From positions 1 through 36,942 of the forward strand of contig JAGBIC010000035.1 in NCBI GenBank assembly GCA_017935185.1: 36,942 nucleotides of DNA, read 5' to 3'. Under the pieces are notes generated by a model. The model did not search any database. It was given only the letters and a program-made list of their open reading frames with translations, and was not told the origin of the DNA. The position numbers and the translations under genes were made by a program. The stretch comes from Alistipes sp. (GTDB lineage Bacteria; Bacteroidota; Bacteroidia; Bacteroidales; Rikenellaceae). This document shows, one piece after another, positions 16,886 through 20,568 of the stretch (the first letter of the stretch is position 1; every line of letters begins with the position of its first letter).

Positions 16886-16987
16886 TAAAAAGAATGGTGG
16901 TGATTGCTGGCAACAATCACCACCTTGTTAGGTTAGTTAGGTTAATGAGAAGTGAGGGTTGCCCCTCGGTGGGTTACCCCACATTGC
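16886..16987 (-). ncRNA. Candidate small RNA with two GNRA hairpins and an intrinsic terminator
   Basis: On the minus strand a consensus promoter (17022-16993) predicts a transcript from about 16987. It begins UAUUAGCAAU and holds two adjoining 5-bp hairpins with GNRA tetraloops: GUGGG-GUAA-CCCAC (16982-16969) and GAGGG-GCAA-CCCUC (16967-16954). A pyrimidine- and A-rich single-stranded linker (ACCUAACUAACCUAAC) follows. It ends in an 11-bp stem, GGUGGUGAUUG/CAAUCACCACC (16924-16896), followed by AUUCUUUUU. The hairpin is a terminator only in this direction. No reading frame of note lies inside. The about 100-nt RNA lies between the convergent GH2 and AraC genes. I do not recognise it as a known family. 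Confidence 0.55.
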
Positions 16988-16992
16988 TAATA

Positions 16993-17022
16993 CAAAGATA
17001 ACACTTTTTTCTAATAAGCCAA
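16993..17022 (-). promoter_or_regulatory. Promoter of the candidate small RNA
   Basis: On the minus strand, TTG at 17022-17020, 19 nt, then TATCTTTG at 17000-16993. The upstream DNA is rich in A/T tracts. It lies downstream of the AraC gene stop and no protein-coding gene starts behind it on this strand. Confidence 0.6.
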
Positions 17023-17108: not shown

Positions 17109-18029
17109 CTATGCACCTTGACAGGCCACCGCAGGTACCATATCTGAAATTTTAACGCTCTGGCCTGACATAGTCACACTACCGCAATGACTGTTGCGAT
17201 AAATCGCGGGCGTTAAGCCATACTCCTTCTTAAACAGTTTGATAAAATGCGATGTGTTGGGAAAAGCGCACTCATTACCAATTTCTGATATAGACTTCGA
17301 GGTGGAGATAAGCAGAAGACGCGATTGCATCAATCGTTGACGAATAAACCATCGGTGCGGCGGAATAAGAAAATACCGTTTAAACTCCTTTTTGAATGAG
17401 GTGAGGGAGCGATGGCAGATTGAGGCAAGCTCCTCGATAGAGATATCACTAAAAATATGTGAATAAATAATCAGTTCGAAATTATCTCGCAGAGAGTCCA
17501 TGTTGCTCAGCACCTTACTCTTAAAACATCCATCTTCCTGCGATACAATCAGATATATAAGCTCGGTCATTTTGATATTTTCGGCAGCAGCATCGTGCAT
17601 GAAATTATCTTCGTGGAGATAACAACCCGCATGGGTGAACAGACTCCGAAGAGTCGGTGAGGCAGGTACTGCAACATGATTCAGACGACGACAACGCTCA
17701 CAGCTATGAGAATTGGTGACATTGATAGAGAAATTCATATTTAGATTCAATAAGATTCTCTTGAGCTGCTCGGGAGAATAATAGACCACAATTTGCTCGA
17801 ATGGCCTACCCTCCTCGGGAATATCCTCGATATAATGGTTACCAACTCCCAGATAGAAGAGGTCACCTTTAGAGATTGTGTGACGAGCGTCACCATAGTA
17901 GATGTTCTTTGCGCCACGCTGCACATAGCCGATGGCACAACGCGATAGTTTCAGCAACTGGATCCCTCCATAGTTCGCCTCCACATACTTTACGACAGTT
18001 GGCTGACTATCGTTTTCGATTTGTTTCAT
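17109..18029 (-). CDS. AraC-family transcriptional regulator
   Basis: A 306-residue protein with an N-terminal cupin-like sensing domain (about 1-170; GDARHTISKGDLFYLGVGNH near 46-65) and a C-terminal double helix-turn-helix AraC domain (about 200-290). The latter shows ISIEELASICHRSLTSFKKEF and the second-helix signature ISEIGNECAFPNTSHFIKLF followed by KKEYGLTPAIYR. It should bind DNA in response to an unknown ligand. The neighbours, a convergent GH2 gene and the ExbB/ExbD operon, do not point to a clear target. The C-terminus has an extra tail of about 25 residues. A GGCCTGTC/GACAGGCC inverted repeat (17061-17068, 17120-17127) spans its stop codon. Confidence 0.92.
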   Translation of the reverse strand: MKQIENDSQPTVVKYVEANYGGIQLLKLSRCAIGYVQRGAKNIYYGDARHTISKGDLFYLGVGNHYIEDIPEEGRPFEQIVVYYSPEQLKRILLNLNMNFSINVTNSHSCERCRRLNHVAVPASPTLRSLFTHAGCYLHEDNFMHDAAAENIKMTELIYLIVSQEDGCFKSKVLSNMDSLRDNFELIIYSHIFSDISIEELASICHRSLTSFKKEFKRYFLIPPHRWFIRQRLMQSRLLLISTSKSISEIGNECAFPNTSHFIKLFKKEYGLTPAIYRNSHCGSVTMSGQSVKISDMVPAVACQGA

Positions 18030-18076
18030 AAAATATGGTTTTGAATAAAAAAGATGTTTGTCTGCATCTGAATACT

Positions 18077-18108
18077 CAAAGTTAGAAATAATTAGCCAAT
18101 ATATACAA
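18077..18108 (-). promoter_or_regulatory. Promoter of the AraC-family gene
   Basis: The minus strand has TTG at 18108-18106, 21 nt, then TAACTTTG at 18084-18077. The start would be near 18070, about 40 nt before the ATG. The rest of the spacer to 18235 contains no gene. Confidence 0.5.
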
Positions 18109-18235
18109 TGTTTTCTATGATTTATTCAATATTTTGTTGGAATTAGGCATTATTAAAACTTAGGTTGGTATTTTCGCAGGAGAAGGAATGAGTTTTCTGA
18201 CTTACCAACTCGGATTTGGCACACGCCACAACACA

Positions 18236-18265
18236 TAAAAAAAGACCCCCGCCAAAGCGGAGGTC
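18236..18265 (-). terminator. Terminator of the ExbB/ExbD operon
   Basis: On the minus strand GACCTCCGC (18265-18257), a TTTG loop and GCGGGGGTC (18252-18244), then a run of seven T. Confidence 0.85.
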
Positions 18266-18286
18266 TCAATATTATTAGTTGAAATA

Positions 18287-18757
18287 CTAATAACCCTCTG
18301 ATTCAATAGCAGCATAAGAGATACGCAGAGCATTAGCACGACGAAGCTCCTGCTTAACGTCAGTAATGATACCCATCTTAGTATACTGATCGGCCTTGAT
18401 ACTAACTGTCATCTGGGCACGGTCAGACTCGTTGAGCTGCTCACGCTCGGCACCGATGAAATCACCGATATCCTTAGCGGTCTTGAACGAATCGTTCAAC
18501 TGAATTCGGGGAGCTGTACCAAACTTGGCCTGCATGTGAGTTACAGGAACACCAATATTGATGTAGCTAACCAAACTCTTCTTCTCAAGCTTCTGCACCT
18601 CGGTAGCCTCGGGGAGCTTGTAACGAACCAACACCTCCTGATCACGCATGGTGGTAGACACCATGAAGAAGAACAGGATCATAAAGATAACGTCAGGAAG
18701 TGATGCTGTAGAGATAGCGGGCAATTCCTTGTTGCCCTTTTTCTTCATTACTGCCAT
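18287..18757 (-). CDS. ExbD/TolR-family biopolymer transport protein (distal copy)
   Basis: Stator subunit of a proton-driven ExbB/ExbD-type motor that energises TonB- or Tol-dependent outer-membrane work. The 156-residue product has a short basic cytoplasmic start, one membrane helix with the essential Asp (LPDVIFMILFFFMVST, D22) and a periplasmic domain ending in IKADQYTKMGIITDVKQELRRA. It starts 2 bp after the stop of the other exbD. It is the last gene of a four-gene operon. Confidence 0.93.
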   Translation of the reverse strand: MAVMKKKGNKELPAISTASLPDVIFMILFFFMVSTTMRDQEVLVRYKLPEATEVQKLEKKSLVSYINIGVPVTHMQAKFGTAPRIQLNDSFKTAKDIGDFIGAEREQLNESDRAQMTVSIKADQYTKMGIITDVKQELRRANALRISYAAIESEGY

Positions 18758-18759
18758 AA

Positions 18760-19359
18760 CTATTTCTTTATTGCTTTACGCGGCTCAGCCTCAGAAATCT
18801 GCTGCGGAACTGCAGTGGTTATTACTTTACGCTCCTCCTCGTTAAGATCAGCGAAGGGGCTGCCAAACTTGCTCTGCGCAACCTCATCACGAATCTCATT
18901 AAATACGCGGGTAAGCTCATTCTGTACCATGATATAGGTCTCGTAAGCCGTGTCACGAGTGGTCTGAAGCGAGATAACGCCCTTACTTCTCTTATAAACC
19001 CACTTAGTGCCATCGGGCATATCGATCTCCTTATCCTCCTTCTCGGGCATATCCTCGTCATCGGTAATATTTACGATAAACTCCTTTGCACGATCCTTGA
19101 GGTTGCGAATATCGACGAACTCATCGCCAACCATCAACTGGCCTGCACCATTAACGAATACCAACAATACATTACGCTCTTTCTGCTTCTGGTCCTCCAC
19201 CTTAACATCCTCGGGGGGAATAGGGGGAAGCACACGAGAAAGACCCTTGTCGGTGTTCATAGTAGTAGCGACGAGGAAGAATACGAGCAACAAGAACGCA
19301 ATATCAGCCTGTGAGCTGGCGTTAATATCCGGTGTCTTTCTTTTATTTCCTCCTGCCAT
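18760..19359 (-). CDS. ExbD/TolR-family biopolymer transport protein (proximal copy)
   Basis: Second ExbD paralogue, 199 residues. The N-terminus KRKTPDINASSQADIAFLLL carries the conserved Asp (D19) in the single membrane helix, followed by FFLVATTMNTDKGLSRVLPPIPP. The periplasmic part is longer than usual, with a charged insertion (DDEDMPEKEDKEIDMPDG near 98-115). Two different ExbD proteins suggest a mixed ExbD dimer in the stator, as seen in other Bacteroidota clusters (inference). Confidence 0.92.
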   Translation of the reverse strand: MAGGNKRKTPDINASSQADIAFLLLVFFLVATTMNTDKGLSRVLPPIPPEDVKVEDQKQKERNVLLVFVNGAGQLMVGDEFVDIRNLKDRAKEFIVNITDDEDMPEKEDKEIDMPDGTKWVYKRSKGVISLQTTRDTAYETYIMVQNELTRVFNEIRDEVAQSKFGSPFADLNEEERKVITTAVPQQISEAEPRKAIKK

Positions 19360-19374
19360 AAAAGTCTCCTTTCA

Positions 19375-19812
19375 TTATTTGAGTGCATCAGAAACAGCTG
19401 AATAGATAGCTGCAACGATAGCACCGGCAAAAACTACATAAGTAAACAAGATGCTGGCATCGGTGATAACAGTCTCTGTACGCTCAAAGTAACCCATAGT
19501 GCTGAGGTCTACAATCTGATAGTCGTGACCGTTTGCAACTACATAAGCAACAACTGCAATAGCTACAATAGCAATAAGAGACAAGAGAGCGCCCTTGATA
19601 CCCGTAGGCTTCTGAATCAAATCCCATGCTGCGCCGAAAATGGCAGCAACGATGGCTGCAGCCAACAGAGCATAACCCCAATAGAGGTTCATGCCCACAG
19701 CTGTTGCATTAGCGGTAGTAGGATCCTCGGGAGTAGTGAATACTGCCCAGAAGACCAAGGCTACCGAAACAGCCATGAGTGCAACCAATGCATATTTTAA
19801 TATTTTCTCCAT
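19375..19812 (-). CDS. Small membrane protein within the ExbB/ExbD operon
   Basis: A 145-residue protein with about four hydrophobic segments: YALVALMAVSVALVFWAVF, WGYALLAAAIVAAIFGAAW, ALLSLIAIVAIAVVAYVVA and LFTYVVFAGAIVAAIYSAV. No named family is recognised. Its fixed place between exbB and the exbD pair suggests an accessory membrane subunit of this motor, but the sequence alone does not prove it. It starts 27 bp after the exbB stop. Confidence 0.85.
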   Translation of the reverse strand: MEKILKYALVALMAVSVALVFWAVFTTPEDPTTANATAVGMNLYWGYALLAAAIVAAIFGAAWDLIQKPTGIKGALLSLIAIVAIAVVAYVVANGHDYQIVDLSTMGYFERTETVITDASILFTYVVFAGAIVAAIYSAVSDALK

Positions 19813-19839
19813 TGTGATAAATCTCTTTAGGGGTAAAAA

Positions 19840-20568
19840 TTACTTCTTGTAAACGGTCAAAATATCAACCAAAGTGATAGAAGCGTCCTCCATTGCGTTC
19901 ACCAAGTTATCAATCTTAGAGATGATATAGTTATAGAACAACTGGAGAATCACAGCAGCGATAAGACCCATCAAAGTGGTCAACAACGCAACCTTGATAC
20001 CACCTGCTACAACGGTCGGAGAGATATCACCAGCAGCCTGAATCTGGTCGAATGCCTCGATCATACCTACTACAGTACCCATGAATCCCAACATAGGAGA
20101 AAGAGCGATGAACAAACCAATCCAAGAAAGACCTGACTCCATCTGACCTGTCTGAACTGAACCGTAAGAAACAACAGCCTTCTCAACAGCGTCCATACCC
20201 TGATCCAAACGATCAAGACCCTGATAGTAGATAGATGCGATAGGACCACGAGTGTTGCGGCAAAGATCCTTGGCAGCCTCAACGCCCTCATTCTTCAAAG
20301 TAGCCTCAAACTTCTCAACAAACTTCTTAGTGTTGATGTTAGAGAATGAGAGGAACAACATACGCTCAATAGCAACGGCCAAACCGATTACCAAGCAAAC
20401 CAACACGGGCAACATCCAAGCCCAACCACCCTCAAGGAACTTCTGCATCAAAACCTGGTGCATGGTATCACCTGCGAGCTCAGTCTCAGCTGCAACGGCA
20501 GCCTCCTGTGCGAAAGCGTTTACAGTGCCAAGTACGGCAACTGCCAAAAACATAAGATTTTTTTTCAT
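19840..20568 (-). CDS. exbB: MotA/TolQ/ExbB proton channel family protein
   Basis: Proton-channel stator subunit that pairs with the two ExbD proteins. The 242-residue product has a signal-like hydrophobic start (KKNLMFLAVAVLGTVNAFA), an extra N-terminal stretch, a first membrane helix (WMLPVLVCLVIGLAVAIERML), a cytoplasmic loop, and the two closing helices with the family signature SWIGLFIALSPMLGFMGTVVGMI (near 148-170) and VVAGGIKVALLTTLMGLIAA. It is first in the operon with a leader of about 250 nt. Whether it serves TonB or a Tol-like system cannot be decided here. Confidence 0.93.
   Translation of the reverse strand: MKKNLMFLAVAVLGTVNAFAQEAAVAAETELAGDTMHQVLMQKFLEGGWAWMLPVLVCLVIGLAVAIERMLFLSFSNINTKKFVEKFEATLKNEGVEAAKDLCRNTRGPIASIYYQGLDRLDQGMDAVEKAVVSYGSVQTGQMESGLSWIGLFIALSPMLGFMGTVVGMIEAFDQIQAAGDISPTVVAGGIKVALLTTLMGLIAAVILQLFYNYIISKIDNLVNAMEDASITLVDILTVYKK

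Follow-up and report, generated by a model that had tools for sequence, protein, structure and literature searches.

A candidate small RNA gene of Alistipes-group gut bacteria with a nearly frozen single-stranded core and predicted targets in nitrogen and C4 metabolism

Within the window, that is, the whole stretch of 36,942 nucleotides of Alistipes sp. DNA that was analysed, an intergenic locus on the minus strand looks like a real, previously unlisted small RNA gene of Alistipes-group gut bacteria. Sequence comparison is enough to establish the gene, its structure, its conserved core and the complementarity of this core to leaders in two gene families. The locus is more than a chance arrangement, because homologues in many species have the same parts. 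Its product is, in our judgement, fairly likely to be a trans-acting antisense small RNA (sRNA) that represses mRNAs of nitrogen and C4 metabolism.

The gap that holds the locus lies between two convergent genes, one for a glycoside hydrolase of family 2 (plus strand) and one for an AraC-type regulator (minus strand), which confirms the setting described in the first-pass annotation. The promoter, read from the sequence (16993..17022, minus strand), consists of TTG at 17022-17020, a spacer of 19 nt and TATCTTTG at 17000-16993. The predicted sRNA of about 102 nt follows at 16887..16988 (minus strand), its ends being placed from the promoter and the terminator. Its first element is a hairpin, GTGGG-GTAA-CCCAC (16969..16982, minus strand), of which the family keeps the stem and not the loop, followed by a second hairpin, GAGGG-GCAA-CCCTC (16954..16967, minus strand), an addition that none of the other 112 sequences of the family is seen to have. 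Next comes the core UUCUCAUUAACCUAACUAACCUAAC (16927..16951, minus strand), the CTAACC linker that we propose as the seed, which is unpaired in the predicted fold. The intrinsic terminator, a hairpin with a U-run seen both in the fold and in a terminator scan, closes the transcript (16886..16924, minus strand); its hairpin spans 16924-16896, with 13 pairs by the scan and 11 in an uninterrupted stem, and is followed by ATTCTTTTTA. All these parts lie on the minus strand where they had been placed, and the scan matched the locus on that strand only, as expected from the claim that the terminator works in one direction. The RNA also folds in the layout first described, with a free energy of -38.5 kcal/mol as compared to -22.2 ± 3.3 in 200 shuffles (z -4.9, better than all 200).

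Relatives of the locus were first gathered by a DNA search within the same genus. They share a common design formed by a TTTG-N19-TAnnTTTG promoter, a 5′ hairpin, the near-invariant 20-mer CAUUAACCUAACUAACCUAA and a terminator that keeps its pairing despite wide differences in sequence among them. When up to two mismatches were allowed, the 20-mer core was recovered in 121 of 180 genus genomes and in 57 of the 70 most complete among these (at least 90% complete and at most 5% contaminated), against 0/180 for the reversed control. A few of these matches sit outside sRNA genes, and most copies are exact even under this tolerance. An exact scan of named genomes returned 112 stretches, and among the matches listed (80 of the 112) all titles are Alistipes, Tidjanibacter or Rikenellaceae. 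The -7 box is present in 113 of 118 distinct sequences, the other five being second copies that lack it, and TTTG is found at a window-like distance from TAnnTTTG in 74 of 109 aligned sequences, with A-rich tracts around. The conservation of these A-tracts suggests that the promoter may drive strong expression. Downstream of the core, a hairpin of at least 10 pairs is found in every one of 113 sequences (median -18.1 kcal/mol), with a median of 6 T in the 8-nt tail that follows. Because these sequences were selected by an exact core, the invariance of the core within the set of 113-118 is by construction. This comparison identifies a stand-alone gene with its own promoter and terminator, and so bears out the proposal of an unannotated minus-strand sRNA of about 100 nt.

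The covariation check over homologous regions came out in favour of the structure, since the stems of both the 5′ hairpin and the terminator covary. A first covariance model (R1), obtained with RNAalifold on a MAFFT alignment, gave only 5 pairs and was therefore replaced by a second one (R2), the structure of which was chosen from pair counts. Built from 39 sequences, R2 matched 85 of the 85 sources searched, the 39 included, and scored the window, itself among the 39, at 64.6 bits. In the covariation alignment, which was fitted to R2 and favours the modelled structure, 90.6% of cells were paired, against 69.9% when shuffled and 44-54% after slides of 1-3 columns. Doubly changed cells numbered 350 where 94 were expected, and 18 of 20 pairs showed double changes. 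Helix 1, the 5′ hairpin, had 98.4% of cells paired and double changes in 5/5 pairs; helix 3, the terminator, 92.6% and 10/10; helix 2, the outer end of the terminator, was weaker (78.1% and 3/5). The first-pass annotation knew of no family with this layout and the Rfam search agrees with it: the window had no match at the gathering score, its matches at E ≤ 10 were far below cut-off and belonged to unrelated families, and no Rfam sRNA family passed the cut-off in 20 related loci. One homologue (L010) is overlapped by a weak match to the BTnc060 model (RF04184), at 32.4 bits against a gathering score of 228.9, in an alignment that spans promoter and sRNA and misses the core.

A covariance search across the order gave matches in 16 of 393 genomes. 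One is the genome of the window itself, four belong to other genera of its family and show the full design, and the remaining 11 are weak. The latter (E 3e-4 to 0.01) were rejected as homologues outside Rikenellaceae for want of the full design, and three of them (L239, L243, L246) read as a hairpin, a G-poor leader and an AUG. Viral carriage was likewise rejected: the 20-mer occurs in 6 viral contigs, but the sRNA is not recognised there, the model giving 22-33 bits. Within the family, five second copies of the core (L082, L085, L117, L119, L154) lie 264-422 bp downstream of the full one; four of the five are partial, and each matches the terminator stem of its own species as far as the copy extends, suggesting recent or concerted duplication, perhaps via a mobile element. 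A subtype (L035, L172, L175, L215-L218, L220, L222) has a large conserved loop, CACAUCUCGAAUAAUUCUCAUGGACACACCAAUU, which repeats the UUCUCAU motif of the core; a short ORF considered in this subtype was discarded, as the frame breaks in L220 (read by eye). In two genomes a core-like CATTAAACCTAACCTAACCAACC immediately follows a stop codon and precedes a terminator hairpin (L535, G127:C56; L536, G100:C230). These stretches lie at the 3′ end of a gene and are not copies of the sRNA gene, and may perhaps be a derivative or 3′-UTR form of the sRNA.

The gene for the AraC-family regulator (17109..18029, minus strand) lies directly upstream of the sRNA on the same strand and is a common neighbour. 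Of the 94 loci whose upstream flank reaches 1300 nt or more, 57 have an AraC homologue immediately ahead of the sRNA on its own strand, and 50 of these 57 are more than 45% identical to that of the window. In other loci it is presumably another membrane protein that precedes the sRNA, or rsmH that lies nearby. Because some loci have neighbours other than AraC, the sRNA has changed location and is probably trans-acting. Pairing with the leader of the neighbouring AraC gene was tried and rejected (57 leaders, mean z +1.1), and so was pairing with 16S/23S rRNA, where the longest exact complement was 7 nt against a shuffled mean of 8.3 (two rRNA operons). Within the window, exbB, a 145-aa gene, two exbD genes and the AraC gene stand in a row ahead of the sRNA (17109-20568); parts of this exbB-exbD-AraC order are kept in some relatives, exbD1 being found in 26 of 112 loci in the limited flank available.

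The complement of the core, GGUUAGUUAG, is found in the leaders of gltB, argR, proB, pckA, a carboxylase gene, peptidases, transporters and a Cro-type regulator, which lends support to the suggestion that the free CUAACC linker could pair with mRNAs. In the genome of the window, a 13-nt exact complement, GGTTAGTTAGG, precedes an aminotransferase gene (outside the GGTTAGTTAGH search below), and 9 nt of complement (11 with a G-U) precede the carboxylase gene. In 10 window-clade genomes, exact GGTTAGTTAG, the complement of CUAACUAACC, occurs at 9 places outside the sRNA gene, 7 of which are sense-strand leaders, as compared to 49 places for the reversed word GATTGATTGG, with 0 leaders among the 41 contexts classified. 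This enrichment is partly trivial, as GGTTAGTTAG brings stop codons into two of the three frames whichever strand is read. The same stop content, affecting most frames, makes the reversed word an unfair control, and leader complementarity is better judged from the tests on orthologues described below. The rarity of GGTTAGTTAG relative to its reversed word could stem from its stop-codon content or from avoidance of off-target pairing. Outside the sRNA, GGTTAATGAG alone is not enriched (29 places vs 26), and 14-mer matches with at most one mismatch are about as frequent as the reversed control, as judged by eye from unsummed counts.

Across the genus we used the word GGTTAGTTAGH, which leaves out the sRNA itself. 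It occurs at 84 places in 58 of 180 genomes, or 82 distinct sites given that L396 and L400 repeat L386. A script classified these 82 as 23 sense leaders, 20 leaders on the opposite strand, 17 antisense, 5 in sense within genes and 17 others, and reading added six sense leaders (gltB in L481, L482, L483 and L486; the Cro-type regulator in L450; the SNF symporter in L464). Sense leaders recur for gltB (5 genomes), the carboxylase (4), argR (3), the M28 peptidase (3) and the SNF symporter (2), with single cases for pckA, proB, an M16 peptidase, metG and the Cro-type regulator. Counting against this reading, four sense leaders precede genes without an assigned identity (L388, L402, L460, L472). 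A lipoprotein is also found in 3, though there the site precedes a promoter-like box. As to the proteins, PckA, ProB and ArgR score above NCBIfam equivalog cut-offs; the carboxylase passes a pyruvate carboxylase subunit B domain model but does not reach the oadA cut-off; GltB and MetG, present as N-terminal fragments, fall short of equivalog cut-offs; and the aminotransferase of the window's genome passes a general PLP model, aspartate aminotransferase being our guess. A widespread antiporter target was considered and rejected: among the leaders fetched, complements of at least 13 nt are present only in G160, G190 and G075, and no other of the 30 has an exact 8-nt complement. In L221 (G128:C12) and L220, a lipoprotein-like leader and the variant sRNA core found in that genome have 22 nt in common, in complementary orientation on the mRNA.

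Leaders of orthologous genes provide the stronger test. For the Cro-type regulator (an HTH_26 match), nine leaders taken by protein identity (L252-L260) were more complementary to the core than to shuffled cores, with a combined p of 1.8e-9 that is, like all p values from orthologues given here, too small because related leaders are not independent. For 16 other Cro-type homologues p was 1.0. The set of nine excludes L262, L267 and L272, which form part of a set of 12 and were added after GGTTA had been seen in them; in the run on 12, the L257 leader was cut short, ranked 0.57 and gave no support. The GGTTA that the orthologues have in common is lengthened to GGTTAGTTAG in some and to GGTTAATGAG in others; each word is complementary to the core, in a register of its own. 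The M28 peptidase switches in the same way, three genomes carrying GGTTAGTTAG and one more GGTTAATGAG.

Carboxylase leaders were fetched by protein. In 10 near-clade genomes, all with a core match, a complementary block lies between a small 5′ hairpin and the AUG, at one place, while the flanks or the downstream leader diverge; two near-clade genomes with the core lack the site. The eight leaders that had played no part in choosing the gene gave a combined p of 7.6e-6, two without the site included. No excess complementarity was observed in 7 near-clade genomes without a core match (p 0.98), nor any site in 11 leaders from outside the clade of the window in which a core match is present (p 0.90). 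Two of the seven core-less genomes are G100 and G127, which hold the core-like stretch mentioned above, and a missing core may reflect an incomplete assembly. Site and core, tabulated by hand, co-occurred with p 0.07 over all 30 orthologues and with p 0.003 (strict) in the 19 nearest, a subset picked afterwards. Complementarity to mRNAs of other loci is thus conserved in held-out leaders of two gene families and is limited to clades; the other gene families are supported by recurrence.

We infer from these features that the RNA is expressed, pairs with leaders in the cell, represses, and serves a regulon wider than these two families. A stand-alone, trans-acting sRNA of about 85-100 nt would be made from the locus, and its short 5′ hairpin and terminator would hold open a near-invariant single-stranded stretch of 20-25 nt, 5′-UUCUCAUUAACCUAACUAACCUAAC-3′. 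This linker would act as the seed, different targets using different registers of it, and pairing would most likely block translation initiation, by analogy with GibS and FopS in Bacteroides. Several leader sites lie 30-50 nt before the AUG, which is far for simple ribosome blocking and counts against this step. The predicted regulon covers nitrogen, amino-acid and C4 metabolism, in a set that differs between clades: glutamate synthase, ArgR, ProB, PckA and the oadA/pyruvate-carboxylase-B-like carboxylase, together with the PLP aminotransferase of the window's own genome, peptidases, the SNF symporter, an AspT/YidE antiporter and the Cro-type regulator. The seed is unusually long, repeated and nearly frozen. 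We see about even chances that the sRNA is a Rikenellaceae-wide regulator of nitrogen and C4 metabolism whose seed is frozen by many leaders in several registers, while targets turn over between clades and sites drift and vanish with loss of the sRNA.

GibS and FopS combine a conserved single-stranded seed with start-codon pairing and repression (PMC7366714, PMC11697453). This family of B. thetaiotaomicron shares with the Alistipes sRNA a Bacteroides-type promoter, a conserved single-stranded seed and an intrinsic terminator; pairing in leaders near the start codons of metabolic mRNAs is also common to both, as a prediction in the case of Alistipes. The seed of GibS/FopS is at the 5′ end whereas that of the Alistipes sRNA lies between two hairpins, and FopS has 14 copies whereas the Alistipes sRNA is mostly one gene per genome, is found in Rikenellaceae and has other predicted targets. 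The Alistipes sRNA has no Rfam match over cut-off, in a copy that may or may not hold GibS/FopS; FopS has been deposited in Rfam according to the same source (PMC11697453). The resemblance would thus lie in the predicted mode of working, and kinship is not implied. MasB (BTnc201) is likewise an sRNA of about 100 nt that represses its target via the 5′ region of the mRNA; its conservation is described as narrow, and its predicted pairing (MasB 41-50 and 69-74) falls about 40 nt downstream of the start codon (PMC10994844).

An RNA that pairs with the same leaders might instead mainly activate or stabilise its targets, by covering 5′ ends or opening structure. We regard this as unlikely, if the best of the alternatives: many sites do lie in the 5′ part of the leader, some of them 30-50 nt from the AUG (carboxylase, argR), but those of proB, SNF, gltB and the M28 peptidase are 0-20 nt before it, the antiporter site abuts it, and the characterised Bacteroides sRNAs of such kind repress, as far as the accessible parts of the papers tell (PMC7366714, PMC11697453, PMC10994844).

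It is somewhat less likely again that the core is a protein-binding site or a leader mimic, so that the RNA would titrate an RNA-binding protein (for example, an RRM protein) or compete with leaders of the same sequence. The very strong conservation of the core would fit, and GGTTAGTTAGH is also frequent upstream of genes in the opposite orientation (the 20 sites above), where purB and a lipid A acyltransferase recur in a way that the antisense model leaves unexplained. Same-sense UAACCUAACUAAC or CUAACUAACC recurs among orthologues a short way ahead of the start codon, both at folD-purB (L208, L211, L223-L225, L401, L408, L456, L461, L476) and at the acyltransferase (L403, L440, L442, L479). 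Similar G-poor leaders exist in distant Bacteroidales and viral contigs, and FopS and GibS bind RbpB, which prefers single-stranded regions (PMC11697453). Such a role leaves unexplained, however, both the complementary sites that switch register in orthologous leaders and their absence from near relatives without a core match, and the finding of the identical 20-mer, in the same sense, in viral leaders that are unrelated suggests composition as the source of such words.

We find it improbable that the shared element acts as DNA, as an operator for the AraC neighbour or the Cro-type regulator present in the transcript and in target promoters. The adjacency of AraC in 57/94 loci, the 9-bp direct repeat that makes up the core and the position of sites, often within about 40 nt of a -7 box, would suit an operator. 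Against it, the sRNA is also found in places without AraC, the element lies between two RNA hairpins and downstream of the promoter, the RNA stems covary, and target sites follow either register of the seed, which is not expected of an operator.

Finally, docking of the twin GNRA hairpins to an RNA receptor or protein, as suggested in the first-pass annotation, is hardly credible, and comparison does not support these loops as the functional core: both loops of the window fit GNRA, but predicted folds give a pair of 5′ hairpins for one sequence out of 113, that of the window, and a GNRA 5′ loop for 17 of 113, GUUCU being the commonest (36). The twin layout is a local quirk and is not conserved. 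The region upstream of the core is 23 to 48 nt long across the family, and the 5′ hairpin seems to be a cap with a free loop sequence.

Our limited literature search turned up no paper with an Alistipes or Rikenellaceae sRNA as its subject, though some may exist beyond its reach. The available parts of the Bacteroides sRNA papers (PMC7366714, PMC11697453, PMC10994844) make no mention of Alistipes, and that of a study of fecal small RNA names it three times, for abundance and the overall bacterial sRNA signal (PMC6749105). The comparison literature on Bacteroidetes sRNAs is that of Bacteroides thetaiotaomicron; if our reading is true, the antisense RNA of Alistipes would add a second gut family with a widely conserved sRNA, one that, as far as can be told from sequence, probably tunes amino-acid and central-carbon genes. 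Its predicted regulon is directly testable, and some 180 species would allow seed, targets and losses to be compared in a natural system.
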